Below are positions 21,715 through 44,705 of a stretch of DNA of 49,428 nucleotides, piece by piece. Under the pieces are notes generated by a model. The model ran no database searches and was not told the DNA's origin. It was given only the letters and a program-made list of their open reading frames with translations. Source of the DNA: a virus; the IMG/VR virus record IMGVR_UViG_3300022871_000001, positions 1 to 49,428 of that record; one strand, written 5' to 3'. Both the position numbers and the translations under genes were made by a program. Position 1 is the first letter of the stretch. Each line of letters starts with the position of its first letter.

Positions 21715-21717
21715 ACT

Positions 21718-23013: not shown

Positions 23014-23030
23014 TAACATAAAGGATAATA

Positions 23031-23111
23031 ATGTATATATATAAAATCACAAATAAAATTAATAATAAAAAGTATATAGGTCTTAGAACTACCTCTAAGG
23101 AAGCTAAATGA
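23031..23111 (+). pseudogene. Remnant of a GIY-YIG homing endonuclease
   Basis: The 26-residue frame opens MYIYKITNKINNKKYIG, which is the N-terminal strand pair of GIY-YIG nucleases (IYKITN then KKYIG), and then ends after LRTTSKEAK. It has a good AAAGGATAAT site before the ATG, and its TGA overlaps the gp48-like start. All later motifs of the domain are missing, so it cannot be an active nuclease. It is likely the scar of a homing gene inserted between two baseplate genes. Confidence 0.7.
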
Positions 23112-23689: not shown

Positions 23690-23705
23690 AAAGGAAGGTA
23701 AATAT

Positions 23706-24719: not shown

Positions 24720-24737
24720 TCTTAAAGGATAAACACA

Positions 24738-24980
24738 ATGACGACACAAACAACATTTTATAAGGGCTTCATAGAAGAAACTGGAAGTTTCAATAGATGT
24801 CTTCTAATTTTAGAACTTGAAGATAATATAGTAATAAAACAAACACTACACAGACGAGTAATAAGTCCATTAGAAAATTATTCCGATGAAATACAAATCA
24901 TAAAAGATATATGTGATGATATGTTCACACCTGAAATAAAAGCAGAATATCAATTATTTTTAGATTCGATGGAGGTATAA
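24738..24980 (+). CDS. Small acidic protein after the fibre gene
   Basis: This 80-residue protein is unrecognised. It has a small beta start (TTFYKGFIEETGSFNRC) and an acidic helical end. Its position suggests a fibre accessory or fibre assembly role, which is inferred. The ribosome binding site of the next gene (GGAGG) lies in its last codons. Confidence 0.6.
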   Translation: MTTQTTFYKGFIEETGSFNRCLLILELEDNIVIKQTLHRRVISPLENYSDEIQIIKDICDDMFTPEIKAEYQLFLDSMEV

Positions 24981-25214
24981 ATGAAAACTGGTAAAATAAT
25001 AATAAATTCAGATATGGAATTATTTGAAGAAGAAATTGTCATCGAAGAAATTGACGGTTTAAATTACAGAGTTAAGAAATTAAACAAAATAACTCCTATA
25101 GATGATGTATCAGATAAATCAGATAAAGTTAAAAAGCTTTCTAATATTCTGAATACTAAGAAAATTAAAGATAAATATCAAGCGAAGCTAGATAAAACAA
25201 AAAAAGTTAAATAA
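24981..25214 (+). CDS. Small lysine-rich protein, unknown function
   Basis: This 77-residue protein follows its neighbour without a gap. The first half is acidic and beta-like, the second half is strongly basic and helical (KIKDKYQAKLDKTKKVK). No family is recognised. Confidence 0.55.
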   Translation: MKTGKIIINSDMELFEEEIVIEEIDGLNYRVKKLNKITPIDDVSDKSDKVKKLSNILNTKKIKDKYQAKLDKTKKVK

Positions 25215-25215
25215 A

Positions 25216-25377
25216 GGTATATATACGAGCGAATGGAATAAACTACCTCCTGTAGCTGCTACTGATACAATACAAAAAGATGGTTCATAGAAAACGCAAA
25301 TTGCAACATTCAATAACCCTGTTTGGGTTCAAAATCCGTTGCAAAATGGTTGTGATCTTGTTTTAGTTGAAAATTAA
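25216..25377 (+). pseudogene. Decayed virion-protein fragment with in-frame TAG
   Basis: The frame reads GIYTSEWNKLPPVAATDTI and onward, hits TAG at 25288-25290, and continues as QIATFNNPVWVQNPLQNGCD to TAA at 25375-25377. There is no start codon with a ribosome binding site. The residues look like a piece of a secreted or fibre-associated protein. It is either a relic or needs amber readthrough. Confidence 0.45.
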
Positions 25378-25417
25378 TTTTAACGTGCTATTGTATATAA
25401 AAGAGAAAGGCCTTAAA

Positions 25418-25744
25418 TTGAATTTAAATACTGGAAATAATTTTGATATTAAAAAAATAGGAGCTAGTTTGTTAATTCTTATTCTTGCAGGTATTTTTTC
25501 TTTTATCTGGAAACTAAACTCAAGCGATTCATTACAAACTTACAATGATATTGATTTTAAAGATAGATTAATATCAACAATCAATATAGTCTCGGATAAT
25601 AGGAAAATACAAGATAAGCGCTATATTGAATTAATAAAAATAGCTACAGAGACGCAGAGTAATGTAAAAACAATAAAAGAACAAATTAATAAATTATGTG
25701 AGAGAGAAAGCAGACTTAATGGTTTTTTAATTACGAAAGATTAA
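25418..25744 (+). CDS. Single-pass membrane protein of the lysis region (possible i-spanin)
   Basis: A TTG start at 25418 follows AAAGAGAAAGG with good spacing, which is better than the TTG at 25367. The product has about 108 residues: a short cytoplasmic start, one membrane segment (IGASLLILILAGIFSFIW) and a polar helical part. Its position before a small lipoprotein gene suggests the Rz/Rz1 spanin pair, but the helical part is short and no sequence proof is seen. Confidence 0.55.
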   Translation: MNLNTGNNFDIKKIGASLLILILAGIFSFIWKLNSSDSLQTYNDIDFKDRLISTINIVSDNRKIQDKRYIELIKIATETQSNVKTIKEQINKLCERESRLNGFLITKD

Positions 25745-25746
25745 AA

Positions 25747-25917
25747 ATGAAAACTATATTAATTTTATTATTCTTATTTTTATCATCTTGCCAAACTGTA
25801 AATTTTAAAGAATATACAGAAGACGGAAAATTGATAAAAGAATATAGCAGAACCGGGACTCCTAACTGGTCTGATAATAAGACAATTCCAGTCTCTTTTT
25901 CAGGAATAGGGGTATAA
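25747..25917 (+). CDS. Small lipoprotein (possible o-spanin)
   Basis: This 56-residue protein starts MKTILILLFLFLSSC, a signal peptide with the lipobox LSSC, so the cysteine at residue 15 should be lipidated. The mature 42 residues are polar with an YSRTGTPNW segment. A short outer-membrane lipoprotein directly after a single-pass membrane protein in a lysis cassette fits an Rz1-like o-spanin, and points to a Gram-negative host. Confidence 0.6.
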   Translation: MKTILILLFLFLSSCQTVNFKEYTEDGKLIKEYSRTGTPNWSDNKTIPVSFSGIGV

Positions 25918-25920
25918 AAA

Positions 25921-26313
25921 ATGAATACTGTATTAACAAAAGAACAATTAGAAAAGTCAAAACTAGAGATTAAAAAATATAATCTTGTACATAATAAACG
26001 TTTTTTTGAGTGTTCAGATAAGTTTATTATTAACTGCTTCAATGGTGCCGGAGCAGATGGAACAAATATTATCGCTAGAATATGTATAACAGAAATACTT
26101 AGTATGTTTATTACTGCGATACTGCTGCACGATTTCAGTTTCACATTAAAAGATGAAGAGTTTGATATTGTTAATCAAGATTTTAGAGAAAACATGGAAA
26201 AACTATTAGATGCAAAATCATCAAATATATTCTCTAAATCATGGAATAGATTTTTAAAAATTGCCGCGTTCGATATGGTAAATAAATTTGGTAATAAATG
26301 GGAGCTAATATGA
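25921..26313 (+). CDS. Conserved-type phage protein in lysis cassette, unknown function
   Basis: This 130-residue protein has the layout NCFNGAGADG, then ITEILSMFITAILLHDFSFT, then a helical C-terminus WNRFLKIAAFDMVNKFG. This NG-G then ITE then HD spacing resembles a family of small phage proteins of unknown role, many found near lysis genes. It sits where an endolysin would be expected, but it lacks any lysozyme, amidase or peptidase motif that I recognise. Confidence 0.6.
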   Translation: MNTVLTKEQLEKSKLEIKKYNLVHNKRFFECSDKFIINCFNGAGADGTNIIARICITEILSMFITAILLHDFSFTLKDEEFDIVNQDFRENMEKLLDAKSSNIFSKSWNRFLKIAAFDMVNKFGNKWELI

Positions 26314-26510
26314 ATGAATTACTTAAAAAACTAACTAATACAAAAACTATTATTGCAATAGCGTCATCGTTATTATTAATAGCGCAGACGTTAGGGTTGA
26401 AAATTGACAATGAAAAAGTAATGATTGTTGTTAATTTAGTGCTAACTATAGGCATTTTATTGGGAGTATTAAATAAATCAGGTATGAATACAACTAAAAT
26501 GGATAAATAA
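26310..26510 (+). CDS. Holin (phi LC3-like)
   Basis: The start at 26310 is supported by GGGAG six bases upstream, rather than the ATG at 26298 that forms part of that site. The product has 66 residues with two membrane segments (TIIAIASSLLLIAQTLG and VMIVVNLVLTIGILLGVL) separated by LKIDNEK, which matches the phi LC3 type of small holins. It should open the inner membrane at the end of infection. Confidence 0.8.
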   Translation: MNELLKKLTNTKTIIAIASSLLLIAQTLGLKIDNEKVMIVVNLVLTIGILLGVLNKSGMNTTKMDK

Positions 26511-26512
26511 TT

Positions 26513-26860
26513 ATGCTACATAAACTAATCAAATTCTATAATAAATATATTACTACATATATGCAGTTCAAAAAAGATAGTAAACATTTAGTATATCTCA
26601 ATGAGACTACACAAAATAAATATGAAAAAGTTGAGACATTATTATTAAAGAATGAGATAGATATTTTATGCGAAAATGATCTTGAAGAGTTGAGTAGAAG
26701 TACTCGTATAATAAGTTTATGTTTTACTGAACAAGAAGAAATGCAAGAAGCACTAACAATAAACATTGATTTTATATTAAAGAACAAATGGAAGTATAAG
26801 ATTGCATATTATACAATTGAAGCGCTCTGTATTTTAGGAATTACTAACAAAATTAAATAA
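26513..26860 (+). CDS. Protein after the holin, unknown function
   Basis: This 115-residue protein starts MLHKLIKFYNKYITTYMQ and is mostly helical and acidic. It is the last gene of the long plus-strand late block and lies just before the terminator at 26922. No family is recognised. Confidence 0.6.
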   Translation: MLHKLIKFYNKYITTYMQFKKDSKHLVYLNETTQNKYEKVETLLLKNEIDILCENDLEELSRSTRIISLCFTEQEEMQEALTINIDFILKNKWKYKIAYYTIEALCILGITNKIK

Positions 26861-26921
26861 TATACTCTGGAAGTCTATATAAATTAAGTTATATATAAAC
26901 TATTAGATTTAAGTATATTAT

Positions 26922-26950
26922 GGACTAGATTTTATGCTAGTCCTTTTTTT
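26922..26950 (+). terminator. Intrinsic terminator of the late operon
   Basis: GGACTAG at 26922-26928 pairs with CTAGTCC at 26937-26943 around an 8-base loop, followed by seven T bases. It separates the plus-strand late genes from the convergent minus-strand block. Confidence 0.85.
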
Positions 26951-26973
26951 ATGTTTAAACAATATTTTTATAA

Positions 26974-27546
26974 TTATTTCATATGACTGATCTTATCAAT
27001 GAATTCCTGTTCTTTTGTTAAAGCACTTTTCATATAATAATTATCTTCTAATCTCATACCCCAATTTTCGCAATAATATCCAGGCTCTACTGCAATTATC
27101 TCATTATCATAAGTATCATGTACTATATTTGTAATTCCGTGATTCAAACGATGATTACAATCCGGCAACACAGTATTCCATATCTTCTCTGCAGTATCTT
27201 CTAATAACGTTCTTTTTACTGTTTTTAAAAAGTTAAATTTTTCCCTATACTTTGCAGGAATAAATCTTCCGCAGTAGAGCATGCGTGTGATATCACTACA
27301 TTGATCGTTAATCTTAAAACCAAAGTCAATTAAAACTAGATCACCTTTCCTTAATTGTCTATTAGTCGCTGGTTCATTGTGTATTTCCCTAGTATTCTCG
27401 CCAAACGCTACTAAAGGATAGAAGGCAATATGGCCACTTCTGATAATAAAGTCTACAACATCAATTTCCCTTAGCCCTACGCATATAAAATCTTTTAATG
27501 CCGAGTAAATTTGTTCAGTAAAATCGAATACATCGTTAGTTTTCAT
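26974..27546 (-). CDS. Compact M24-family metallopeptidase
   Basis: This 190-residue protein has the complete active site of the M24 (methionine aminopeptidase / Xaa-Pro dipeptidase) fold: H56 in TREIHNEP, metal ligands D74 (LVLIDFGF), D85 (CSDITRML, eleven residues after D74 as in the family), H136 (LNHGI) with H143 seven residues later, E154 (IAVEPGYY) and E167 (MRLEDN). It is clearly shorter than the usual about 250 residues because the part between D85 and H136 is trimmed. It should remove N-terminal residues from peptides or be a binding-only derivative. It is the last gene of the minus-strand operon, with GAGGAGA before its start. Confidence 0.82.
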   Translation of the reverse strand: MKTNDVFDFTEQIYSALKDFICVGLREIDVVDFIIRSGHIAFYPLVAFGENTREIHNEPATNRQLRKGDLVLIDFGFKINDQCSDITRMLYCGRFIPAKYREKFNFLKTVKRTLLEDTAEKIWNTVLPDCNHRLNHGITNIVHDTYDNEIIAVEPGYYCENWGMRLEDNYYMKSALTKEQEFIDKISHMK

Positions 27547-27583
27547 AATTATCTCCTCTTATTTTACATTTAATCCTTGACAT

Positions 27584-27766
27584 TTAACTTATCATATTTA
27601 CTATTTCATCTGTAGTTTCTATAACATCAATATCTTCTACTATATTATTAGTAACTATTCTTATTGTTGTAAAAGTGTTCTTATAATTACGAAAGAAGTA
27701 TATTATATTTAGTTCATTGATCCTTAGATCACTGCCATTTGTTGTTTTTACATAAATAAAATTCAT
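27584..27766 (-). CDS. Small protein, unknown function
   Basis: The chosen start gives 60 residues (MNFIYVKTTNGSDLRINELN); it overlaps the TGA of the 20-residue frame upstream as ATGA. A GTG three codons earlier is less likely. The protein is beta-rich with an acidic end (DIDVIETTDEIVNMIS). No family is recognised. Confidence 0.6.
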   Translation of the reverse strand: MNFIYVKTTNGSDLRINELNIIYFFRNYKNTFTTIRIVTNNIVEDIDVIETTDEIVNMIS

Positions 27767-27825
27767 AATAACCACTTATATTTATTATTTTTTTTTGCTC
27801 TATTAATATATTTTTTAAGCTTCAT
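27763..27825 (-). CDS. Very small basic peptide
   Basis: A 20-residue frame (MKLKKYINRAKKNNKYKWLL) has a strong AAAGGAGGAG site and overlaps the next gene as ATGA. It is the first frame after the minus-strand promoter at 27878-27906. It may be a true peptide or a leader that couples translation. Confidence 0.5.
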   Translation of the reverse strand: MKLKKYINRAKKNNKYKWLL

Positions 27826-27877
27826 TATTTTCTCCTCCTTTATATTTTAATTATATTTCTTTCTCTTTATATAATAT

Positions 27878-27906
27878 ATTATAACATATACATCACATTT
27901 TGTCAA
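27878..27906 (-). promoter_or_regulatory. Promoter of the shared early family
   Basis: On the minus strand CTATTGACA, a 17-bp spacer and TATAAT occur. It should drive the genes 27825 to 26974, including the M24 peptidase. Confidence 0.8.
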
Positions 27907-27923
27907 TAGCAGTTTTAATTCTT

Positions 27924-28190
27924 TTACTTTTTTATTTCTTCTCTAATCTTATTTACTATTGCACTATATTCTGATCTAGCATCATTTATTTTTTTAACTA
28001 GTTCAGCAGTAAATGCTTCATCTTCTAATCCTTTTGATATATCTAGTGTATTGCTCTTCCCTTTATGATAATCTTCTGAACTTGTTGCCCCCCATGTGCC
28101 ATATTTTGCTGTGAATCCTCTCGCATATAATATCAAAACTAAATTTTTTATAATGCTTTTAAGTTCTGCTAATCTTTTAAAACTATTCAT
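27924..28190 (-). CDS. Small phage protein, unknown function
   Basis: This 88-residue protein is helical at both ends with a central glycine-rich piece (GFTAKYGTWGATSSEDYHKG). Its leader region (28199-28273) is the inverted copy of the leader at 31231-31305. It follows rha by about 80 bp. No function can be assigned. Confidence 0.6.
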   Translation of the reverse strand: MNSFKRLAELKSIIKNLVLILYARGFTAKYGTWGATSSEDYHKGKSNTLDISKGLEDEAFTAELVKKINDARSEYSAIVNKIREEIKK

Positions 28191-28198
28191 TTTTATTA

Positions 28199-28273
28199 CT
28201 TTCTTAGTGTTAATGACTTTGTTAATAACTCTATATTTTGTGCCTAGTGTGCCTGTTAATAACTTTCACTATA
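28199..28273 (-). repeat. 75-bp inverted repeat, left arm
   Basis: This arm matches the reverse complement of 31231-31305 with one mismatch. It contains GTTATTAACA, GTTATTAACAAAG and CATTAACAC words, and GGCACACTAGGCACA, so it may hold operators. It lies between rha and the gene at 27924. Confidence 0.9.
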
Positions 28274-28973
28274 TATTTAATATGTTTTTAATTTTGTCTA
28301 GAAGGTATATTTGTCCTTTGCCGGTAATTAGATATGTTGTAACTAATAAATCGCCCTTAATAGAAGTTAAAACTGTTTCTTTAATTTCGAATATGCCCAT
28401 ATTTATATATCTTTGAAACGGAGAATTTTTAGATCTACCGGCTTTTATCAAAAATCCATTTTTGCGCAGTAGGTTGAATAGTTTATTACGACCTATTTTT
28501 ATGCCATAGTTATTTAACACTTTTGCATAATCACAAACCGGTATCGATTCTGAGGAGTTCGCTACACTTTTACCGAAGTTTGAAAAAGGTTTATCAAGTT
28601 TTAATTGTTCTGATTTTCTTTCATTTAATTCTACTATATCTACTAATGCTAATAGAGCTTCTTTGTACGTTGCAGGCAGCTTTGGCATATTTTGATTTTC
28701 AAGTTCTTCCCAGCGTGATAAAACTATATCTCTTAATTTTGTTGAATATCCTGTCAATAAAATCATTAATTCATGGTACGGTAAAAGATATTGCTTTTGG
28801 AATCTTCCACAACTGTCACTATAGATCTCCTCAAAAGTGAGGTAACCTTTTTTAAGATCTTTTAACATTTTTTCAATGTCTCTAAGTACATTGTCATGTC
28901 TCTTCCCTGTTTCTTTTGCAATTTCTCTACTGCTCATCGTCACTTTATTGTCCCTAACTTTTAAATTATTCAT
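28269..28973 (-). CDS. rha: Rha-family regulator with KilAC-like C-terminal domain
   Basis: The N-terminal about 90 residues are a Rha domain (VTMSSREIAKETGKRHDNVL, then FQKQYLLPYHELMILLTGYS). The C-terminal part (VCDYAKVLNNYGIKIGRNKL, LLRKNGFLIKAGRS, then a stretch ending in LDKIKNIL) matches the KilAC/ANT domain of antirepressors. The Rha plus ANT combination is typical of phage regulators that interfere with repressors or host functions. A relic of its middle part lies at 31186-31243. The 234-residue length fits the family. Confidence 0.88.
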   Translation of the reverse strand: MNNLKVRDNKVTMSSREIAKETGKRHDNVLRDIEKMLKDLKKGYLTFEEIYSDSCGRFQKQYLLPYHELMILLTGYSTKLRDIVLSRWEELENQNMPKLPATYKEALLALVDIVELNERKSEQLKLDKPFSNFGKSVANSSESIPVCDYAKVLNNYGIKIGRNKLFNLLRKNGFLIKAGRSKNSPFQRYINMGIFEIKETVLTSIKGDLLVTTYLITGKGQIYLLDKIKNILNI

Positions 28974-28976
28974 TTG

Positions 28977-29255
28977 TTAACTCTCCTCTATCTCATTTAA
29001 TAAATTAATATCTCTTTTTGCACGTTCTATAATTGATATTCTTTTTATTTCTCTACATGTAGCTCCAGTTTGTTGTTCTGCTGCTTCATAGCATTTACTT
29101 ATATCGCAAAAACAGTCCTCACAGTCAAATTCAGCTAGAAGTAGGTCTAGTGCCATATTTCTATATTCAATTTCATTTGTTAATATATCAATATGTTCAA
29201 AAAGAGCTTTGATTTGATTAGATATAATTTCTAATTGTTCTTTATCGTGTTGCAT
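28977..29255 (-). CDS. Small cysteine-rich protein, unknown function
   Basis: This 92-residue protein is a helical N-terminus followed by FDCEDCFCDISKC and a later TGATC, five cysteines that could bind a metal. It lies four bases before rha and is probably co-transcribed with it. No family is recognised. Confidence 0.6.
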   Translation of the reverse strand: MQHDKEQLEIISNQIKALFEHIDILTNEIEYRNMALDLLLAEFDCEDCFCDISKCYEAAEQQTGATCREIKRISIIERAKRDINLLNEIEES

Positions 29256-29264
29256 TTTTAAATC

Positions 29265-29513
29265 CTAAATTAATCTTAAAAATTTTAATATTTTTTGTAC
29301 TAATGTTAATTCTATCTTTAACTGTTTTTTTAATGTTTTTATTCTTGCCTCACAATTTGTAATTTTATTTAACATGATATATATCGTATATTTTGCTTCA
29401 TCTTTTGGAATAATCCTTATTCCAGAATTATCTATTTCATAAATTAGATTTTTAAATTCAACTACATAATCTTCTAAAATTTCTATTTCGTCTTTTATTG
29501 TAATATCATCCAT
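29265..29513 (-). CDS. Small helical protein, unknown function
   Basis: This 82-residue protein (MDDITIKDEIEILEDYVVEF at its start) is mainly helical and charged, with a hydrophobic end. It has an AGGAAT site. It lies second in the operon that contains rha. No function can be assigned. Confidence 0.6.
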   Translation of the reverse strand: MDDITIKDEIEILEDYVVEFKNLIYEIDNSGIRIIPKDEAKYTIYIMLNKITNCEARIKTLKKQLKIELTLVQKILKFLRLI

Positions 29514-29515
29514 TT

Positions 29516-29587
29516 TTAAAATTCCTTTATTTTATAACTTTTTATATAAATTTCGCTATAATCTTTTATTATTTTATAACCCTCCAT
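29516..29587 (-). CDS. Possible 23-residue peptide
   Basis: The frame MEGYKIIKDYSEIYIKSYKI ends two bases before the start of the next gene, so it may be a coupled leader. The ribosome binding site is weak. It starts just downstream of the promoter at 29598-29625. Confidence 0.3.
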   Translation of the reverse strand: MEGYKIIKDYSEIYIKSYKIKEF

Positions 29588-29597
29588 TTTGATCTTA

Positions 29598-29625
29598 ATT
29601 ATAAGCCCATATCGTTATTTGTCAA
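29598..29625 (-). promoter_or_regulatory. Promoter of the shared early family
   Basis: On the minus strand TTGACA and TATAAT are separated by 16 bp. The -35 box is inside the last codons (PIDK) of the gene at 29615-29782. It should drive 29513 to 28269, including rha. Confidence 0.8.
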
Positions 29626-29782
29626 TAGGCTTTTTTAAATATTTTGAATATATTTCTCCAAAATGTTTTGCTAAACCTTTTTGTATCCAGTACATTGCTG
29701 CTTGTTCATCACTTACTTCTAGCCTCCTAGCGTACTTGTGAATCCATCTCATTTGTATCATATTGTATTTTAATGTTGTCAT
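29615..29782 (-). CDS. Small basic protein, unknown function
   Basis: This 55-residue frame (MTTLKYNMIQMRWIHKYARR at its start) has a very strong GGAGGGAT site. It has a helical pattern (EQAAMYWIQKGLAKHFGEIY) like short helix-turn-helix or coiled proteins. It is preceded by the promoter at 29811-29838. The end of the gene doubles as the -35 box of the next promoter. Confidence 0.65.
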   Translation of the reverse strand: MTTLKYNMIQMRWIHKYARRLEVSDEQAAMYWIQKGLAKHFGEIYSKYLKKPIDK

Positions 29783-29810
29783 CTCTAATCCCTCCTGCTT
29801 TATACTAGTA

Positions 29811-29838
29811 ATTGTACGCCTAAATAGCTGTTTGTCAA
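29811..29838 (-). promoter_or_regulatory. Promoter of the shared early family
   Basis: On the minus strand CTATTGACA, a 16-bp spacer and TACAAT occur. Upstream of it are A-tracts (CTTAAAAAACTTAAAAAAAG) spaced about one helical turn, like an UP element. It serves the gene at 29782. Confidence 0.7.
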
Positions 29839-29893
29839 TAGGCGAAACAAGCTTTTTTTAAGTTTTTTAAGTTTTTTTTATAACTAAAATTGA

Positions 29894-29965
29894 CGGGCGT
29901 TAATAGAGTCGAACTATCAATAACAGAGATAAATCTGTCGTACTGCCGTAGTACTTTGAACGCCC
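29894..29965 (-). tRNA. tRNA-like gene with non-standard anticodon loop
   Basis: On the minus strand, GGGCGTT (29959-29965) pairs with AACGCCC (29895-29901) to form a 7-bp acceptor stem, with G as the discriminator base. The T-arm is canonical (GATAG, loop TTCGACT, CTATT). The D-arm is GTACT/AGTAC with a GG-containing loop. The anticodon arm ACAG/CTGT leaves the 8-base loop ATTTATCT; pairing one more A-T leaves six. Neither is the normal seven, so the anticodon (TTA or TAT are possible) is uncertain. The CCA end is not encoded. It may be a working phage tRNA, a decaying one, or a mimic. Confidence 0.7.
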
Positions 29966-29997
29966 ATAAAATGTTTTTTATCTCTTTCATATTAGTA

Positions 29998-30026
29998 ATT
30001 ATATATAGTAACATTAACTTTGTCAA
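29998..30026 (-). promoter_or_regulatory. Promoter before the tRNA-like gene
   Basis: On the minus strand TTGACA, 17 bp and TATAAT precede the tRNA-like gene by about 33 bp. The sequence upstream (CCTATTGACA side, A-tracts at 30037-30060) is a near copy of that at 29833-29870, so the promoter module is duplicated on each side of the tRNA. Confidence 0.8.
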
Positions 30027-30039
30027 TAGGCGAATTAAT

Positions 30040-31139
30040 TTTTTTTTAAGTTTTTTTTAAGTTTATTTATTATGATTTGATTATCTAAATCTAAAAACAC
30101 AATAGACGCGTCTTAGAATGCAAAAGATATAAGACCCGATACAGTTATCACAAATCAATACAATCAAAAGCACATATAACAGTATGATCAAATTTAACCC
30201 TATTTTAACTTATATATTGGATTGGTAAATAACATTCCACCTAGTTAACCATATCAGTTCGCTTTTTAACTCTTACTTTTAATATCAAAATAATTATTTA
30301 AAAAACATGTAAAAAATCTTATTCCTGACTGTCTAGATAAAATATCTTTAATATCTTACTTATATTTATTATGTTCATTGTGTCGATGTCCGGTCGATGT
30401 GTTGATTATTTCTTTATCATTCTTTTTTAAACAGCGATAGGATCTGTTATTGCTTTAGACATAATAATTACTTTCTATCTTTATTATTAATGTCAAATAT
30501 AATAATAAAATAAGGGAGGTCAATAATATTTTTAGATTTTGACCCCTTCTTTTATATATGTTATTAGAATAATAATATATATTCTTGTTAGTGTCCGATT
30601 TAAAAAACGACGAGGTGTAACTTATTGATTGCTAAGTACTTATAAGAAAAATCCGCTGTCCGGTCGCTGTCCGAACGCTTGTTTTAATTAGTTGTAAGTT
30701 ACTAATAATAAGCTAGTTGCCTTATGCAATCCGCTGTCCACTGACCCTTTTTTTTTGACCTGCAATTTTTACCCATTTTTGATGATTATATTGATCTTTT
30801 AAAGTTCGTTGTTCAAACACTTGTTTTAATTAGTTGTAAGTTGTTAATTTATAATATGTTATCTTATGTAGTTCGCTGTCCAGTCGCTGTCCGATTTTAA
30901 AAAATAGAGTTTATAAATAGCTTATGATTAATATGTTATAAACTAATTTCGCTGTCCACTACTTTTTGCTAAAATTTCAATACAATTCTGATTTGTTAGA
31001 GATCTATATAGATTGATAGAACGTACATCGAAGCATCGACACGTCGACACATCTACAGAATATCGACACATCTACCTATTGTTTTGATTCATGTTTGGCA
31101 AGAAATTAAAGATTTTATCAAAATAACTAAAAACTGCTA
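30040..31139. other. Non-coding, iteron-rich region, probable replication origin
   Basis: No credible gene occurs in this 1.1-kb stretch. It holds at least six exact copies of CGCTGTCC (30654, 30665, 30732, 30874, 30885, 30950), several pairs spaced 11 bp apart, with variants CGATGTCC (30384) and GTGTCCGATT (30591). Two longer repeats share TTGTTTTAATTAGTTGTAAG (30680 and 30820). A second word, CGACACATCTAC, occurs twice near 31045 and 31065. The reverse complement GGACAGCG is repeated inside the initiator gene at 36.4 kb. This is the make-up of a phage origin bound by its own initiator. Confidence 0.65.
30516..30600 (-). pseudogene. Decayed inverted fragment of the initiator gene
   Basis: Read on the minus strand, this stretch begins AATCGGACACTAACAAGAATA, which is identical to about 36545-36565 of the initiator gene, and after a variable piece continues with GGGTCAAAA as at 36599. 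In translation it keeps KSDTNKN and later GQNL. It is therefore a broken, inverted duplicate of part of the initiator gene. Confidence 0.6.
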
Positions 31140-31167
31140 TTGACAAATTTACTTTTTGTAGTACACT
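31140..31167 (+). promoter_or_regulatory. First rightward early promoter
   Basis: CTATTGACA, a 16-bp spacer and TACACT precede the leader that leads into the rightward early genes. The -10 is the weakest of the family, which suggests it may need activation or be regulated. Confidence 0.65.
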
Positions 31168-31185
31168 TATCTAACAAAGGGAAAA

Positions 31186-31248
31186 ATGTTAAAAAATCTT
31201 AAAAAAGGTAACACAACTTTTAGGGATACCTATAGTGACAGTTATTAA
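31186..31248 (+). pseudogene. Relic of rha acting as a possible 20-residue leader
   Basis: The frame MLKNLKKGNTTFRDTYSDSY has AAAGGGAAA before its ATG. Positions 31186-31243 match the rha gene (28868 down to 28811) without gaps with about a dozen differences; rha reads MLKDLKKGYLTFEEIYSDS there. After TATAGTGACAGTT it jumps to sequence found downstream of rha. A deletion between two similar TATAGTGA words explains it. Confidence 0.7.
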
Positions 31249-31305
31249 CAGGCACACTAGGCACAAAATATAGAGTTATTAACAAAGTCATTAACACTAA
31301 GAAAG
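31231..31305 (+). repeat. 75-bp inverted repeat, right arm
   Basis: This arm is the reverse complement of 28199-28273 with one mismatch. It forms the untranslated leader of the gene at 31315, as the left arm does for the gene at 28190. It carries GTTATTAACA and CATTAACAC words that may be operators. Confidence 0.9.
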
Positions 31306-31314
31306 GCAAATAAA

Positions 31315-31503
31315 ATGAAACAGGGATATGCAGCATTATCAGCACGACAGCATCTAATTCAAAGATCAGTTAACCGGATTAAAAAAGAATCAAAAAATCA
31401 TTTAAGTTATGGAGATGATATTGATGATCAAAAAACGTTATTATATATGCAATCTGTTAAAGATATATTAGAAGAATTACAGGAAATAATAGATATAAAA
31501 TAA
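31315..31503 (+). CDS. Small charged protein, unknown function
   Basis: This 62-residue protein (MKQGYAALSARQHLIQRSVN at its start) has a helical second half that reappears in the frame at 31868-31996. It is the first full rightward early gene. The ribosome binding site AAGAAAGG is moderate. No family is recognised. Confidence 0.6.
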   Translation: MKQGYAALSARQHLIQRSVNRIKKESKNHLSYGDDIDDQKTLLYMQSVKDILEELQEIIDIK

Positions 31504-31606
31504 TATAAAAAACTTTCAAAAAACTTCTTTTAACTATTGACAAATTGCATTAAGTGCATATAATGTATAATAGAAAGAGAGGTAAATGAAATGAAAAATT
31601 TAACAA
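31384..31606 (+). repeat. Duplicated cassette, copy 1
   Basis: These 223 bp recur at 31877-32099 with one difference seen. The unit spans the 3' half of one small gene, a full promoter and the start of the next gene, so recombination or copying has moved a promoter plus gene boundary. Confidence 0.93.
31537..31564 (+). promoter_or_regulatory. Promoter of the shared early family
   Basis: TTGACA, 16 bp and TATAAT. Phased A-tracts lie just upstream (AAAAAACTTTCAAAAAACTTC). It serves the gene at 31591. Confidence 0.85.
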
Positions 31607-31878
31607 ATAAGTTAGTAGATCAAGGATATAAATTAGAAGTTAATTATAAACTTAATTTTCAAAAAAGGAATTTAGAAATGAAAACTACAAACAGTGAATT
31701 TTTAATGAATAAGGTTATAAGATTAACCGGTCACACAAAAGAACAAATTATGAATGATTATTATAATTCTTATAGAGTTTCAGATTTTATAAAAAGTTTG
31801 GATGGAGATGATATAAATAGTGCTAAAATTACAAGCACTTTGAGAAATTTATATAAAAAATTAAGTAATGAATCTTAA
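31591..31878 (+). CDS. Small protein, unknown function
   Basis: This 95-residue protein shares its first residues MKNLT and its promoter with the gene at 32084 because of the cassette duplication. The rest (VIRLTGHTKEQIMNDYYNSY) is helical. Its end overlaps the start of the repeated frame at 31868. No function is recognised. Confidence 0.6.
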   Translation: MKNLTNKLVDQGYKLEVNYKLNFQKRNLEMKTTNSEFLMNKVIRLTGHTKEQIMNDYYNSYRVSDFIKSLDGDDINSAKITSTLRNLYKKLSNES

Positions 31879-31996
31879 AGAATCAAAAAATCATTTAAGT
31901 TATGGAGATGATATTGATGATCAAAAAACGTTATTATATATGCAATCTGTTAAAGATATATTAGAAGAATTACAGGAAATAATAGATATAAAATAA
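31868..31996 (+). CDS. Truncated paralogue of the 31315 product
   Basis: The frame is MNLK followed by ESKNHLSYGDDIDDQKTLLY and onward, identical to the last 38 residues of the 31315 product. The start lies inside the preceding gene (AGTAATGAATC). It is the coding part of the duplicated cassette and may be a harmless passenger. Confidence 0.5.
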   Translation: MNLKESKNHLSYGDDIDDQKTLLYMQSVKDILEELQEIIDIK

Positions 31997-32099
31997 TATA
32001 AAAAACTTTCAAAAAACTTCTTTTAACTATTGACAAATTGCATTAAGTGCGTATAATGTATAATAGAAAGAGAGGTAAATGAAATGAAAAATTTAACAA
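31877..32099 (+). repeat. Duplicated cassette, copy 2
   Basis: This is the second copy of 31384-31606, offset by 493 bp in the same orientation. The one visible difference is GCGTA in place of GCATA in the promoter spacer. Confidence 0.93.
32030..32057 (+). promoter_or_regulatory. Promoter of the shared early family (second cassette copy)
   Basis: TTGACA, 16 bp and TATAAT, duplicated from 31537-31564. It serves the gene at 32084. Confidence 0.85.
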
Positions 32100-32251
32100 T
32101 AAAAGAAAAAAAAGTTATGTTGCAGGCCTTAGAACTATTAAATAGATTTACAAAATGTGAAGATCTAAACAAGCAGTATGAAGCAATATTATCAAAGCTT
32201 ATAAGAATTGTAAAAACAGATGATGAAACAGAGTCCGAAATTTGGTTATAA
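32084..32251 (+). CDS. Small helical protein, unknown function
   Basis: This 55-residue protein (MKNLTIKEKKVMLQALELLN at its start) has a good GAGAGG site copied with the cassette. It is helical and charged. No family is recognised. Confidence 0.6.
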   Translation: MKNLTIKEKKVMLQALELLNRFTKCEDLNKQYEAILSKLIRIVKTDDETESEIWL

Positions 32252-32266
32252 AAAGGATATAAAGAA

Positions 32267-32524
32267 ATGCACGAATTAACTATATATATTAAGAAAAAGT
32301 TATTGCAAGAAATTGTTTTGACTGATATCTATATGTCAGATATTATTGAAACAAAATTAGATGATGTTGTAATGTTCGATTGTCTTGATGCTAAAATTAA
32401 TATTTACAGTGGGGCAGATGGTAACATAAAACACACAAAACCACTGGACAAAGATATATTTTTTGAGAATTACTATGAACAAATAGAGACACAAATATTA
32501 GATGAGCTAGGTTTATATTTATAA
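32267..32524 (+). CDS. Small acidic protein, unknown function
   Basis: This 85-residue protein has an alternating strand and helix pattern (MHELTIYIKKKLLQEIVL at its start) and an acidic character. It lies directly before the recombination genes. No family is recognised. Confidence 0.6.
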   Translation: MHELTIYIKKKLLQEIVLTDIYMSDIIETKLDDVVMFDCLDAKINIYSGADGNIKHTKPLDKDIFFENYYEQIETQILDELGLYL

Positions 32525-32542
32525 AAATAAGAGGCAAATAAA

Positions 32543-33145
32543 ATGGAAAAATCAGAAACAATTAATAAATTAGCAGTAAGCTTATGTAAGGCACAGGAAC
32601 AAATGGGCGGGGCAAATAAGAATGCAACAAATCCATTTTTTAAAAGCCAGTACTCAGATTTAACAGAAGTAATTCAAACAATTAAAAGTTGTTTACATAA
32701 AAATGGATTATCAATTATACAGGCGCCGGTAAGTAGCGAAAAAAGTATAGGCGTTGAAACTATATTACTACATGAATCAGGTGAGTATATTAGTAGTTCT
32801 TTCACATTGCCGATGATCAAAATGGATCCTCAGCAAGCCGGCTCTGCTATCACTTACGCACGTCGTTATGCATTAAAAAGTTGGATGTTAATTCCTGATG
32901 TTGATGATGACGCACAAAGTTGTATGCAAAATAAAAATGTTAAACAAAACAACTATAGTAATACTCAATCCGATAGTAAAATTTTACCTATTAGTGACTC
33001 AATTAAGAATAGGATTAAACTTGCTAATGACTTAAATGGATTAACTACAATATATCATCAACTCAAAGATAATAATTCAATAGATCAAGCTGAGTTAAAT
33101 TCATTACTATCAAATAGAAAGAAAGTATTAAATGAAAATAAGTGA
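32543..33145 (+). CDS. erf: ERF-family single-strand annealing protein
   Basis: The N-terminal about 130 residues carry the ERF signature: MGGANKNATNPFFKSQYSDL, then IIQAPVSSEKSIGVETIL and the motif AGSAITYARRYALKSWMLIP. It should anneal single-stranded DNA and pair with the exonuclease encoded just downstream. The C-terminal part is polar and variable. Its last codons overlap the small membrane protein gene at 33132. Confidence 0.9.
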   Translation: MEKSETINKLAVSLCKAQEQMGGANKNATNPFFKSQYSDLTEVIQTIKSCLHKNGLSIIQAPVSSEKSIGVETILLHESGEYISSSFTLPMIKMDPQQAGSAITYARRYALKSWMLIPDVDDDAQSCMQNKNVKQNNYSNTQSDSKILPISDSIKNRIKLANDLNGLTTIYHQLKDNNSIDQAELNSLLSNRKKVLNENK

Positions 33146-33251
33146 TACCTTATATTTAACAATATTTATGTTTTCATTTATTCTAGGTTTAGCATCTGGA
33201 ATAATTTTAGGAATAACTTTAGGAATAATAATTAGCTTAATAGGGGGATAA
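33132..33251 (+). CDS. Small membrane protein
   Basis: This 39-residue frame overlaps the end of erf. It is almost wholly hydrophobic with small-residue patterns (LGLASGIILGITLGIII), which suits one or two tightly packed membrane helices. Its role is unknown. Confidence 0.55.
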   Translation: MKISDTLYLTIFMFSFILGLASGIILGITLGIIISLIGG

Positions 33252-33252
33252 A

Positions 33253-33846
33253 ATGCAGATAATACGAGATGTAGAACAGGGATCAGAAAAATGGTTTAAA
33301 TTGCGTGAGTTACGCATGACTGCTTCACATGCTCAAAGTATTGCTGCAGCAGGTAAGGGCCTAGATACATATATAAGGACTAGAATTCAAAACTATAAAT
33401 TAGGACAAGGATCTCCTATTTTCATTAATGATGCGATTGAAAATGGTATTAAGTTAGAGCCAGAGGCGCGCTCAATGTATGAAATAACTAAAGGAATAGA
33501 AACACGGCAGGTTGGCTTTGTAATATATAACGATTATGTAGGTTGTTCGCCTGATATGTTGATTTGTAAAAAGGGACTAGGTGAAATAAAATGTCCTACT
33601 GACCGCGTATTTTTACGATATCTAAAAGATAAAATAATAAATACAAAATATCTATGGCAAATGCAAATGCAAATGATGATCTGCGAGCGTAGCTGGTGCG
33701 ACTATATAGTTTACAATCCACATTTTTTAGAAAACATTATTGTAAAGCGCGTATATGCGGATACGGCAATGTTTCAAAAGTTAAAAGCAGGGTTAGTAAT
33801 AGGTACAGAACTAATTAAAGAATTACTAGAAGGAGGTGAAAAATGA
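33253..33846 (+). CDS. YqaJ-like viral exonuclease
   Basis: This 197-residue protein has the YqaJ/lambda-exonuclease layout: QGSEKWFKLRELRMTASHA at the start, the acidic residue in VGCSPDMLI, then LGEIKCP (the E-x-K motif) and YLWQMQMQM. It should digest one strand of double-stranded DNA and supply single strands to the ERF protein, forming a Red-like recombination pair. Confidence 0.92.
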   Translation: MQIIRDVEQGSEKWFKLRELRMTASHAQSIAAAGKGLDTYIRTRIQNYKLGQGSPIFINDAIENGIKLEPEARSMYEITKGIETRQVGFVIYNDYVGCSPDMLICKKGLGEIKCPTDRVFLRYLKDKIINTKYLWQMQMQMMICERSWCDYIVYNPHFLENIIVKRVYADTAMFQKLKAGLVIGTELIKELLEGGEK

Positions 33847-33978
33847 ATATAATATTAGTATTAGTAGGAACAATTATATTGATAATGATGATAATGATGA
33901 TAATCACGGGGATATATTTATCAACTATATCAGACGAAATAGATAGAGAATATAAGAAACAAAAGGAATTTGAAGAAA
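33831..33978 (+). repeat. Duplicated membrane-peptide segment, copy 1
   Basis: These 148 bp are identical by eye to 34870-35017. They begin at the ribosome binding site and end in the coding sequence of the membrane peptide. Confidence 0.93.
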
Positions 33979-34001
33979 CAATAAAAAGAGGGGGAACTTA
34001 A
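33843..34001 (+). CDS. Small membrane protein (copy 1)
   Basis: This 52-residue protein has one N-terminal membrane segment (MNIILVLVGTIILIMMIMMI) and a charged tail. The first 45 residues are identical to the protein at 34882; the last few differ. It has an AGGAGGTG site. Confidence 0.7.
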   Translation: MNIILVLVGTIILIMMIMMIITGIYLSTISDEIDREYKKQKEFEETIKRGGT

Positions 34002-34003
34002 TA

Positions 34004-34885
34004 ATGAATAGTATCGTAAAAGTAGACGCAAAAGACTTTGGATTAGAAGAGAACAAAGCTCAGCAGATAGCAATAATGTTTGATCCGATGTTGAATAAAA
34101 TGGTAGAGCTAGAAAAAGAATATAACGCGCTAGCTAAAATTGATATTTCAGAAAAAAAATGTCAGTGGGCTAAGGATTTAAGATTACAATATGTTAAAGT
34201 AAGGACAGGCACAGCTAAAATTCATAAAGAGCTAAAACAATTCTATTTACAGGGGGGTAGATTTGTTGACGGCTGGAAAAATGCGCAATTGATGGCTTCC
34301 GGAACAATAGAAAATAAACTTAAAGACATAGAAGATCATTATGTTAATATTGAAAAAGAAAAAATACAAAAGGTTGAGGATGAAAGAACCGTTGAATTAT
34401 TAAAATATGGTAGTGAAATAATGCCGAAACAGTTAGGTAATATGCCAGAAGCAGTATTTCAAAATTATTTAACAGGAGTAAAAACTGCTTATGAATTAAA
34501 AATAGCCGCAGAGGAAAAAGCTGAAGATGAAAGAATAAAATTAGAACAACAAAAAATAGCAGAAGAAAAAGCTTTGCGTGCAGAGAACGAAAGGTTAAAA
34601 GAGCAGGCAAAGGCAGATGCAATAATACGTGAGAAGGAACGTATAAAATTTGAGGCAAAGGCAAAAGAGCAGGCAAGGGCAGAATTAGATCGTAAAATAC
34701 AGGAGGAAGAAAGACAGGAAAAGACAAGATTAAATTCACGCGAGGATTTAGTCAAATTTAAAGATTTTAAAACAAATATATTATCGTTAATAAAAGAATA
34801 TGATAATTTTACTGATCAAAGATGTGCTGATAGTTTTAATTATATCAAGGATTTTATAACCGATTATTTAGGAGGTGAAAAATGA
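34004..34885 (+). CDS. Coiled-coil phage protein of the recombination region
   Basis: This 293-residue protein has a helical N-terminus with a segment recurrent in phages (KVRTGTAKIHKELKQFYLQG, then GRFVDGWKNAQLMASG) and a long central charged coiled coil at residues about 165-245. It resembles a family of phage proteins of unknown role that often lie next to recombination genes (DUF1351-like). It lies between the two copies of the small membrane gene. Confidence 0.65.
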   Translation: MNSIVKVDAKDFGLEENKAQQIAIMFDPMLNKMVELEKEYNALAKIDISEKKCQWAKDLRLQYVKVRTGTAKIHKELKQFYLQGGRFVDGWKNAQLMASGTIENKLKDIEDHYVNIEKEKIQKVEDERTVELLKYGSEIMPKQLGNMPEAVFQNYLTGVKTAYELKIAAEEKAEDERIKLEQQKIAEEKALRAENERLKEQAKADAIIREKERIKFEAKAKEQARAELDRKIQEEERQEKTRLNSREDLVKFKDFKTNILSLIKEYDNFTDQRCADSFNYIKDFITDYLGGEK

Positions 34886-35017
34886 ATATAATATTAGTAT
34901 TAGTAGGAACAATTATATTGATAATGATGATAATGATGATAATCACGGGGATATATTTATCAACTATATCAGACGAAATAGATAGAGAATATAAGAAACA
35001 AAAGGAATTTGAAGAAA
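34870..35017 (+). repeat. Duplicated membrane-peptide segment, copy 2
   Basis: This is the second copy of 33831-33978, offset by 1,039 bp in the same orientation, identical by eye. Confidence 0.93.
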
Positions 35018-35049
35018 GACTAGAAAAAGGTAAAATTAATAATGAATGA
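34882..35049 (+). CDS. Small membrane protein (copy 2)
   Basis: This 55-residue protein is the duplicate of the one at 33843 and differs only in the last about ten residues (RLEKGKINNE). Its start overlaps the TGA of the coiled-coil gene. A 17-codon frame (35042-35095) follows and is too short to call. Confidence 0.7.
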   Translation: MNIILVLVGTIILIMMIMMIITGIYLSTISDEIDREYKKQKEFEERLEKGKINNE

Positions 35050-35095
35050 AAAGAAACGTAAAAACTTATTAATAAAATATAAGGGAATTATATAA

Positions 35096-35503
35096 ATGTC
35101 AAAGATAACAGCTAAACATATAGCAAACGTCGACAAAAATGGTGAGATGATTATCTTCGCAGATGTCGTAAAATGGAAACAGAACAAGCTAACTCTAAAA
35201 GGTCAGCAAGTTGAAATAACAATTAAAAAATTAGTAAAACATCGTAGTACTAATCAAAATGCCTATTTTGCATGCGTTATTTGTGTTATGTTCGCGGAAG
35301 AGATGGGCTGTAGATCTGAGGAGGCAAAGGAGGCACTTAAACGTGAATTCCTAGAAATACAATTAGCGTGTGGATTGAAGACAACAAAACCAACAAGTAG
35401 CCTCTCAACTGTTGAATTTGAGGATTTTACAAGACAATGCAGGCAGCTGGCCGGCGAGATGTTTGATCTTTATATTCCCTTGCCCAATGAAATAAATTTT
35501 TAG
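35096..35503 (+). CDS. NinB-like recombination protein
   Basis: This 135-residue protein has the pattern HRSTNQNAYFACVICVMFAE, then EEAKEALKREFLEIQ, then SSLSTVEFEDFTRQCRQLAG and a C-terminal YIPLPNE, found in NinB/Orf-like phage proteins that aid homologous recombination. Position next to ERF, YqaJ and an HNH protein agrees. Confidence 0.72.
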   Translation: MSKITAKHIANVDKNGEMIIFADVVKWKQNKLTLKGQQVEITIKKLVKHRSTNQNAYFACVICVMFAEEMGCRSEEAKEALKREFLEIQLACGLKTTKPTSSLSTVEFEDFTRQCRQLAGEMFDLYIPLPNEINF

Positions 35504-35549
35504 GAGGTTAATATAATAGATATAATTAATAAACTTGATGAGGCAAAGA

Positions 35550-35945
35550 ATGAAAAAGAAAAAAACTGATCGCGCAAAACTAAAAATACGTTTAGAAAAA
35601 ATGGCAAAGGATATTGTAAGGGCTAGAGATGATAATATTTGTACAAAATGTAAAAAATTTGTAGAGGGATCAAATCGACATTGTTCTCATATCATACCTG
35701 AAAGTGCAGATCATCGCTTAGCATTAGAACCTCATAACATGATAATAATGTGTTTTCATTGCCATATAAACTGGTGGCATAAAAATCCTATCGAAGCAAG
35801 CGAATGGGCATTAAAACTTTTTCCTACTTTAGTGCTAAAACTAAGACAGGAACATCTAGAAAATAGTTCAAAAGGTCCCATTAAACTTTCCGAATTAGAA
35901 GAAATAGAAGAAAGACTAAAAGAAATGCAGAAAATATGTCAATAA
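35550..35945 (+). CDS. NinG/Rap-like HNH protein
   Basis: The chosen start gives 131 residues with GAGGC upstream. The protein has the CTKC zinc pair, then RHCSHIIPESADHRLALEPH and CFHCHINWWHKNP, the HNH-type metal fold of NinG/Rap nucleases that act on recombination intermediates. A strong GGAGG site 30 bases upstream has no ATG next to it. Confidence 0.72.
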   Translation: MKKKKTDRAKLKIRLEKMAKDIVRARDDNICTKCKKFVEGSNRHCSHIIPESADHRLALEPHNMIIMCFHCHINWWHKNPIEASEWALKLFPTLVLKLRQEHLENSSKGPIKLSELEEIEERLKEMQKICQ

Positions 35946-35949
35946 GCTA

Positions 35950-35977
35950 TTGACAATTTAGTACAAAGTGATATAAT
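35950..35977 (+). promoter_or_regulatory. Promoter of the shared early family
   Basis: CTATTGACA, 16 bp and TATAAT directly precede the replication initiator gene. Confidence 0.85.
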
Positions 35978-35996
35978 TACATAAAAAGAGGATAAG

Positions 35997-36929
35997 ATGC
36001 AAAATGGATTTATAAAAAATTTTAGAGCTGTACTAGACAATGCAGTATGTTGCAAGGATACAGATTATTTTGCTGTGTGGAATTATCTTCTTCTTAATGC
36101 TACATATAAAAATAAGTTTGCAATATTGGCAGGCCAAAAAATACTACTAAAACCGGGTGAAATTATCACCGGAAGATCATCAATTTCAAAATTTTGGAAT
36201 ATTTCACATTCTAAAGTTGAGCGCATATTAACTACACTTGAAAAAGATGGACAAATCAGTCAAAAAACATCCAGTAGTGGGCGCTTAATCACTATAACAA
36301 ACTGGTCAATATATCAGATAAAAGATAAAAGCCCTGAACAGCAAAATAATATTATAAATAAAACAGTACCAAGCACTTATGATATCAAAAATAAAAAATC
36401 AGACAGCGACCGGACAGCGAGTGGACAGCGGAAGACAGTAGACATCGGACAGCGAGTGGATAGCGGAAGCAATTGTGATATAAACACTTATGACTTAGAT
36501 ACACAACAAATCGGACAGCGAATGGACAACCCTATTTTAGCAAAATCGGACACTAACAAGAATAAAGAAAGTAATATAAATATTACTAATAATATAAAGG
36601 GTCAAAACTTAGAATATATAAAAATAGTAAATAACTTTATCGAGAAGAAACTTACAGACGAAACATTTAAAAATAGTCTTTATCTTAAAAATACCGATGT
36701 ACAGGCATGGGTCTTAGAAATCGATAGGTTAGTAAGACTAGACAAACACACGCAAGACACTATAATCGAAGTTTTAGAGTTTTCTCTGTACAATCCTTTC
36801 TGGTCTAATCAGATTGTATCACTGTTAAATATACGCAAAAAAAGCAAAAGAAACGGATTATCCAAATTTGAAAACTGTAGATTAAGCTTAGAGACAGAAA
36901 AAAATTATAAACTAAAAAATAGGAGGTAA
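35997..36929 (+). CDS. Replication initiator with N-terminal winged helix
   Basis: This 310-residue protein begins QNGFIKNFRAVLDNAVCCKD and has a winged-helix-like segment (IITGRSSISKFWNISHSKVE, then RILTTLEKDGQISQKTSSSG), as in phage O-type initiators. Residues about 133-190 are the iteron-encoded part (SGQRKTVDIGQRVDSG, QQIGQRMDN). The C-terminus is helical. It likely opens the origin and recruits a helicase or its loader. Having iterons within its own gene is the lambda O arrangement. Confidence 0.78.
   Translation: MQNGFIKNFRAVLDNAVCCKDTDYFAVWNYLLLNATYKNKFAILAGQKILLKPGEIITGRSSISKFWNISHSKVERILTTLEKDGQISQKTSSSGRLITITNWSIYQIKDKSPEQQNNIINKTVPSTYDIKNKKSDSDRTASGQRKTVDIGQRVDSGSNCDINTYDLDTQQIGQRMDNPILAKSDTNKNKESNINITNNIKGQNLEYIKIVNNFIEKKLTDETFKNSLYLKNTDVQAWVLEIDRLVRLDKHTQDTIIEVLEFSLYNPFWSNQIVSLLNIRKKSKRNGLSKFENCRLSLETEKNYKLKNRR
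36402..36566 (+). promoter_or_regulatory. Iteron cluster inside the initiator gene
   Basis: GGACAGCG-type words occur at 36402, 36412, 36423, 36447, 36458 (GGATAGCG) and 36513, many about 11 bp apart and so on one face of the helix. The same word in the opposite orientation fills the non-coding region at 30.4-31.0 kb. This is a probable initiator-binding site and a candidate origin. Confidence 0.7.
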
Positions 36930-36931: not shown

Positions 36932-37558
36932 ATGATTTATAAAGAAGAAATTGTTGATATTGTACAGGAAACTCTATTTGCCAATTTTGCATTTCCGCCA
37001 TCCGTGATGGACAAGTATGTAATAGGATTATCAAATATTAACAATATAGAAGGTCTTGTTGATGTTATTAATGCTCTTGCTATAGAGTATAGAAAAGACA
37101 AATTTAATCCTAAACCTCCCTTAAATTTGATTATTGACACATATAATAAAAAAGTAATGAGTAGACTAAGAAATAATACAACCTGTAATCTTTGCAATAA
37201 TAAGGGGACTATAATAGCTTTTTGTGACCTCAGAGACGGTCTGATAGAATGGAAAAAAGGAATACATGCATATCAAAATTTGACGCAAGCAGTGTTGGTA
37301 TGTGAATGCGAATATGGTAATGATATGATAAAATTTCCTCAAAAAAGTGTAGATCAAACAGTTTGTATACGAAGTAAATTAATTGAAAAATATGGTTTAA
37401 CATATAGAGATGCAAAACGAGTAAAACTTATTAATATTGCTATAGATGAGTATAATAAACAATGTGATAATATAATAGATAGTTTAGATTCTGAAATGGT
37501 TTTATTCTGGTTTACTAGATTTTTTATTAAACAATGTAGGAACTATGAGGGGCAATAA
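36932..37558 (+). CDS. Zinc-binding protein next to the initiator, possible helicase loader
   Basis: This 208-residue protein lies directly after the initiator gene with GGAGG before its start. It has an N-terminal helical part, then CNLCNNKG and a later CEC that could bind zinc, and a helical C-terminus. No Walker motif is seen, so it is not a DnaC-type ATPase. A helper in replication is inferred only from position. Confidence 0.6.
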   Translation: MIYKEEIVDIVQETLFANFAFPPSVMDKYVIGLSNINNIEGLVDVINALAIEYRKDKFNPKPPLNLIIDTYNKKVMSRLRNNTTCNLCNNKGTIIAFCDLRDGLIEWKKGIHAYQNLTQAVLVCECEYGNDMIKFPQKSVDQTVCIRSKLIEKYGLTYRDAKRVKLINIAIDEYNKQCDNIIDSLDSEMVLFWFTRFFIKQCRNYEGQ

Positions 37559-44516: not shown

Positions 44517-44705
44517 ATGAAAAATTTATTAACAGAAAAAGAAATCTATGATCTAATAAAAAATGGTGACAAGATATATAAAAAACAACAAGAAGAACGT
44601 GATAAGTTTTTAAATGATCCTAAAAATAAAAAAAAAATAGAGCAGATCAAAAAAACATTAAAAGACGCTGAAATAGAATATAAATTGCAGGTGGATACGA
44701 AATGA
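44517..44705 (+). CDS. Small charged helical protein
   Basis: This 62-residue protein (MKNLLTEKEIYDLIKNGDKI at its start) is a charged helix. Its last codons are part of the 250-bp duplicated cassette and overlap the start of the NrdD-tail gene (ATGA). Confidence 0.6.
   Translation: MKNLLTEKEIYDLIKNGDKIYKKQQEERDKFLNDPKNKKKIEQIKKTLKDAEIEYKLQVDTK

Follow-up and report, generated by a model that had tools for sequence, protein, structure and literature searches.

Two described systems come closest to the arrangement reported here. In Bacillus phage SPP1, the initiator gp38 binds direct repeats at two loci, oriL within gene 38 and the intergenic oriR, both of which have an AT-rich unwinding element. 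Replication begins at oriL; when gp38 occupies oriR, the fork is thought to stall there and so to trigger recombination-dependent concatemer synthesis, for which an annealing protein, an exonuclease and a resolvase are used (PMC6316719, PMC3485210). Lambdoid phages carry iterons within the initiator gene, followed by an AT-rich tract (PMC7466680), and lambda initiation is blocked when ectopic lambda origins are present in trans (PMC4488673). The current study concerns the complete IMG/VR virus record IMGVR_UViG_3300022871_000001, all 49,428 bp of which were analysed (the window), and in which one iteron, CGCTGTCC, lies both inside the predicted initiator gene and in a gene-free region, here called the distal locus. 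To our knowledge, lambda has a single origin of the gene-O type, with a different iteron and no second copy of the segment, and it is unclear how two-origin pairs arise. By its sequence, the distal cluster derives from the origin segment of the initiator gene, of which it is a copy, inverted and decayed. We give about an even chance to its being a second, oriR-like initiator-binding locus that acts as an auxiliary origin or a fork barrier, and favour this over titration, an inert relic or transcriptional operators. The original prediction, made from the letters of the window, had noticed the shared repeats; it named neither the derivation of the distal cluster from a duplicated, inverted and decayed piece of the initiator gene nor SPP1 as a worked precedent.

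The same iteron at two loci

Exact CGCTGTCC occurs ten times in the 49 kb, against 0.18 expected, and none of 100 shuffles reached that number. Six copies are on the + strand of the gene-free stretch, between 30654 and 30957 (30654-30661, 30665-30672, 30732-30739, 30874-30881, 30885-30892 and 30950-30957), four are on the - strand within the open reading frame (ORF) at 35997-36929 (36412-36419, 36423-36430, 36447-36454 and 36513-36520), and none lies elsewhere. The CGCTGTCCNNTCGCTGTCC pair is also present at both loci, with no match in the controls. The proposal of one iteron in two places and in opposite orientation is thus borne out, with the clusters ~5.5 kb apart (30957 to 36412) and not the 6 kb first given. 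The six distal copies stand as described, but the spacing, said to be often 11 bp, includes only two 11-bp steps (30654/30665 and 30874/30885), the rest being ~65-67 or 142 bp. Within the gene, where a spacing of about 11 bp had likewise been reported, the steps between exact copies measure 11, 24 and 66 bp (the last following the copy at 36447), and the other 11-bp neighbours are variants, namely AGACAGCG at 36401, GGATAGCG at 36458 and GGACAACC at 36524. With these and a variant at 36548, the complete in-gene array spans 36401-36552 (- strand). A site at 30384-30391 (+), named in the original prediction, is present as the variant CGATGTCC rather than as an exact iteron, and lies outside the ~66-bp framework described below.

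The gene that carries the in-gene array (35997-36929, + strand) encodes a predicted initiator or replisome organiser of 310 aa, with an N-terminal winged helix, a disordered linker and a C-terminal helical part. Its product matches the DnaD-like helicase loader family phrog_2514 (6.9e-38) and, more weakly, the O-like family phrog_391 (3.4e-8). AlphaFold2, run on 19 aligned sequences, gave a pLDDT of ~90 for the N-terminal domain, below 50 for the linker and a weak C-terminal part; the nearest PDB folds found by Foldseek were winged-helix DNA-binding proteins, with no E below 0.001 and a model mostly poor outside the N-terminal domain, and a PDB sequence search gave nothing useful. A promoter-like site, TTGACA-16-TATAAT (12/12), is found at 35950-35977 (+). 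The iterons are located in the linker-coding DNA and are flanked, downstream in gene direction, by an AT-rich stretch holding a candidate DNA-unwinding element (36560-36639), which ranks in the weakest 0.09% of all 80-bp windows when scored by nearest-neighbour energy. The in-gene cluster is the ordinary arrangement, in the usual place for such origins. A protein repeat was considered as the source of the in-gene pattern and rejected, since the iteron is read in three codon frames. The gene that follows (36932-37558) has no family match, and its single-sequence model reached a pLDDT of 35.6.

The distal cluster lies in a region of 1,254 bp (30061-31314) with no ORF of at least 50 aa, six times the length of any other ORF-free stretch, the second longest in the genome being 205 bp. 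By the same measure, a candidate unwinding element at 30460-30539 ranks in the weakest 0.66% of these windows, so that both loci pair their iterons with one of the genome’s weakest duplex stretches. Besides the six exact copies, the cluster holds a decayed site, TCGTTGTTC (30806-30814, +), at a ~66-bp position, and an outlying TGTCC within TTGTTAGTGTCCGATTT (30592-30596, +), the context of which is identical to that of in-gene 36548; six of these eight sites are perfect and one is decayed. Read along the minus strand, the positions run 30957 -65- 30892 -11- 30881 -67- 30814 (decayed) -75- 30739 -67- 30672 -11- 30661 -65- 30596. The ~66-bp spacer therefore occurs four times (65, 67, 67 and 65; P ~7e-4 against random placement, 0.004 without the decayed site), a recurrence partly inherited via an internal tandem duplication at 30664-30898 (+ strand; 30664-30752 and 30806-30898, offset 142 bp), which multiplied the distal sites.

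Perfect sites at the distal locus outnumber those of the in-gene origin by six to four, which would also suit titration or handcuffing, whereby the initiator would bind the distal sites without firing and would either deplete free initiator or pair up with the in-gene origin, so keeping over-replication in check. Given that ectopic lambda origins in trans block initiation, extra sites should act quantitatively even if they never fire (PMC4488673). In addition, no integrase was recognised among the window ORFs scanned, and plasmid-like maintenance with copy control would therefore be possible. However, a pure titration site could do without an AT-rich unwinding element, whereas the distal sites adjoin, in an origin-like order, a stretch that is among the weakest in the genome, and we regard titration as unlikely.

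General origin signals were also scanned. GC skew, which had been suggested as a means of mapping the origin, tracks gene strand only and gives no origin signal; six DnaA boxes were found against 7.6 expected, none near either locus. Perfect promoters flank the distal cluster, one leftward (30026-29998, -) and one rightward (31140-31167), and this position between them is what transcriptional operators would predict, with the initiator or another phage regulator on the distal sites controlling the divergent early operons. The sites nevertheless overlap neither promoter core, from which they are ~180 bp and 570 bp distant, and the region is homologous to the origin segment and not to a promoter, making control of this kind very improbable. 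Several early promoters, i.e. these two, those in the 31530 and 32023 region and that at 35950-35977 (+), have a CTATTGACAA context at the upstream hexamer, and this shared context suggests one common regulator or duplicated promoters.

Derivation of the distal locus

The two loci share more than their iterons. Local alignment of 30526-30601 with the minus strand of 36543-36617 scored 57, against maxima of 39-45 for shuffles and 41 for other segments of the window. The aligned AT-rich block covers 76 bp, has diverged to ~72% and holds in its best part a perfect 19-mer, TCTTGTTAGTGTCCGATTT; the order of the iterons after the block is identical at both loci. Traces of the coding sequence are also readable: within the block the distal minus strand reads KSDTNKN..NNI..GQNL, KSDTNKNIYYYSNNIYKRRGQNL on that strand is a relic peptide corresponding to in-gene KSDTNKNKESNINITNNIKGQNL, and the further relic peptides SDSDRTA and TATGQR are interspersed with stops and frame changes. 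A tblastn comparison of the window’s own initiator with the gene-free gap gave 7e-5. The second locus proves to be an entire origin-like segment, with iterons, the ~66-bp spacing and an AT-rich block, and not a mere scatter of sites. The original reading is thus partly supported: that two loci carry the same initiator sites has good support, whereas its functional part, two origins or one origin with a regulatory site, is an inference. The copy may have arisen either by duplication within the genome or through exchange with another, related phage.

The same decay would be expected of an inert relic, left either by a degenerating inverted duplication or by an older or foreign initiator gene after mosaic exchange. 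Stops and frame changes run throughout the segment, and no winged-helix or C-terminal relic was detected in the distal region. Nevertheless, six of the eight sites are perfect despite the divergence of the block, the region far exceeds any other ORF-free stretch, and the sites have been multiplied, not lost; we regard inertness as unlikely.

Iterons in related initiators

A profile search of IMG/VR and GTDB found homologous initiators, distant relatives from several phyla, that carry GGACA-core sites in the same linker. These winged-helix initiators come from uncultivated and temperate phages (L007, L009, L020, L021 and L028-L040, with the prophage-like L092, L110 and L097); they share with the window a homologous N-terminal domain, the iteron core and step and, in most, the 66-bp spacer, but unlike the window they have no distal cluster in the records searched. 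Over 19 initiator genes the iterons follow 11- or 12-bp steps, and an exact 66-bp spacer is present in 13 of the 19 (window included), several of which are near relatives, so that independent cases are fewer. The sites fall in all three codon frames (53, 32 and 27 sites), which means that selection acts at the level of DNA and that the iterons are conserved as DNA and not as peptide.

In a scan of whole records, GGACA pairs at 11 or 12 bp were found in the initiator gene of 16 of 17 relatives, L037 using another core. No distal cluster was found in the records of these 17, many of which are fragmentary; outside the gene there were only isolated pairs in G003, G008 and G024. The second pair of G008 (1779-1797), two sites beside a tRNA where an integrase gene has its 3' end, was rejected as a cluster. 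Clusters of 7-mers occur outside the gene in L028, L032, L034, L037, L038 and L040-L042, and the iteron array is absent from these stretches in L028 and L038, the two that were read. A GTDB scan for iteron pairs gave 86 loci. At only three of these did the profile detect an initiator at the matching position; most of the rest seem to be chance matches in GC-rich DNA. Other cores occur at similar spacing, with GAACA in Pseudomonas KLEP17-4 and Lactobacillus BH1. In Enterococcus phage Efs 1-1-1 (L044:19998-20753), TGACAA sites in the initiator gene are spaced by 67, 65, 67, 11, 22 and 11 bp, i.e. with a ~66-bp period and a different iteron core, and begin within the part that codes for the winged helix.

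Searches of viral and genome collections found no close relative by initiator, and by tail sheath only another fragment of the same phage (L050). Conservation of the coding repeats only, which the original prediction had named as evidence against two loci, is thus what all the distant relatives found display, the close ones being fragments of the same phage. The distal locus accordingly appears to be lineage-specific, which says little on function and does not show inertness.

Genome context

The record has an exact terminal direct repeat of 127 bp (1-127 and 49302-49428), the usual mark of a closed circular assembly, and probably represents a closed circular genome of 49,301 bp, with the caveat that its ends lie within a gene that contains repeated NSEITTLDNLTSIAGN-like units. 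The virus is a virus of bacteria, a phage with a contractile tail, encoding Baseplate_J and a minor tail protein; a 533-aa protein at 13436 is read as the tail sheath. Its closest terminases, from distant Arthrobacter, Vibrio and Gordonia phages, are only ~30% identical, and for this reason no host is named. Two further contigs belong to the same phage: L012, 99.99% identical to window 17993-31510, and L050, 99.6% identical to 3436-18084. The distal cluster is also present in L012 and is therefore no artefact of a single record.

Several other repeats were observed. A perfect 223-bp direct repeat (31384-31606 and 31877-32099) contains a promoter-like TTGACA..TATAAT and gene starts. A 161-bp direct repeat of 98% identity (33831-33991 and 34870-35030) duplicates a small membrane-protein-like ORF (MNIILVLVGTIILIMMIMMII...) flanking 34004-34885, and a small ORF (MNNKKCGLKCEVYARVTGYIRPVNVWNKGKKEEFINRKEYITNNQKIIKKAIDK) is duplicated at 44702-44866 and 48243-48407, with 3.5 kb between copies. 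A tape-measure-like tail gene (17900-18200) has near-perfect tandem repeats (QSLITPLNNIKQLETQSINK), at which contigs L012 and L050 break. The leftward operon encodes an M24 peptidase (26974-27546, -; Pfam Peptidase_M24, 6e-20) near a Rha/KilAC antirepressor gene. Rfam and tRNA scans gave no match.

Discussion

The in-gene locus resembles that of lambdoid gene O (lambda and Stx phages), with iterons in the linker-coding middle and an AT-rich tract downstream (PMC7466680), and the O-like family match, although weak, is a further likeness. The pair of loci resembles that of SPP1 (replisome organiser G38P) in layout: a single initiator, a repeat-bearing origin in its gene and an intergenic one kilobases off, with direct repeats and an AT-rich unwinding element at both, here recognised from sequence only. 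Between the two loci lies a recombination module (32543-35945, +) encoding an ERF annealing protein (32543-33145, 7e-26), a YqaJ exonuclease (33253-33846, 2e-16), a NinB-like protein (35096-35503, 1e-7) and an HNH endonuclease (35535-35945), the role of which as a resolvase is only suggested by a weak NinG/Rap match (3e-7). Annealing protein and exonuclease genes are thus common to both phages, whereas the resolvase-type gene is the weaker match. The systems differ in that 12-13 kb separates the SPP1 loci, oriR being in the late region, whereas those of the window are inverted and 5.5 kb apart; the distal one, which can be recognised as a derivative of the initiator gene, lies between divergent early operons.

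We propose a series of linked steps. The winged helix of the initiator would bind the GGACA-core iterons in the linker-coding segment of its own gene, and the bound initiator would open the AT-rich DNA next to them (36.55-36.64 kb), where replication would start, in the manner of lambda O and SPP1 gene 38. The origin segment would have been copied, inverted, to a site 5.5 kb off between the divergent early operons; there its coding capacity would have decayed while the iterons, the ~66-bp spacing and the AT-rich DNA stayed, and internal duplication would have added sites. The same initiator most likely binds the distal copy too, which may work like SPP1 oriR, i.e. as an auxiliary origin or, when occupied, as a fork barrier feeding recombination-dependent replication. 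We prefer an oriR-like role because the ERF, YqaJ, NinB-like and HNH genes are the kind of module that the SPP1 model requires, because the surplus of perfect distal sites and the long gene-free stretch have been kept, and because the distal locus repeats the order, the spacer and the weak duplex of the in-gene one and has a homologous AT-rich block with relic peptides. The site statistics, the use of all three codon frames and the precedent of gp38 count in the same direction.

Several observations weigh against this preference. One of the eight distal sites is decayed; a comparison of the two tandem copies shows iterons and spacer conserved to no different advantage of the iterons, and so gives no sign of purifying selection on the distal sites; and the cluster is found in no distant relative. 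All three would also suit an inert relic. Neither a DnaB-type helicase nor a G39P-like loader was identified among the ORFs scanned. Moreover, the linkage of the distal cluster to the initiator gene depends on the window assembly alone, across the perfect 223-bp repeat, because L012 stops inside that repeat.

In a tentative scenario, to which we give a little under an even chance, an inverted copy of the internal origin of an initiator gene entered the early control region, ceased to code for protein and came to serve as a second locus dedicated to initiator binding. SPP1 is the worked example of two phage origins under one initiator, and the layout is known in detail from that one other phage. 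The interest of the distal locus is that its derivation is still readable in the sequence: because remnants of the initiator gene can be recognised in it, it resembles a transitional stage from a single origin to a pair. The GGACA-core iteron, with its 11/12-bp step and 66-bp spacer in divergent winged-helix initiators, provides a sequence handle for origins in uncultivated phages. If true, the proposed scenario would show how a phage gains an SPP1-like two-origin programme from a single origin by duplication.

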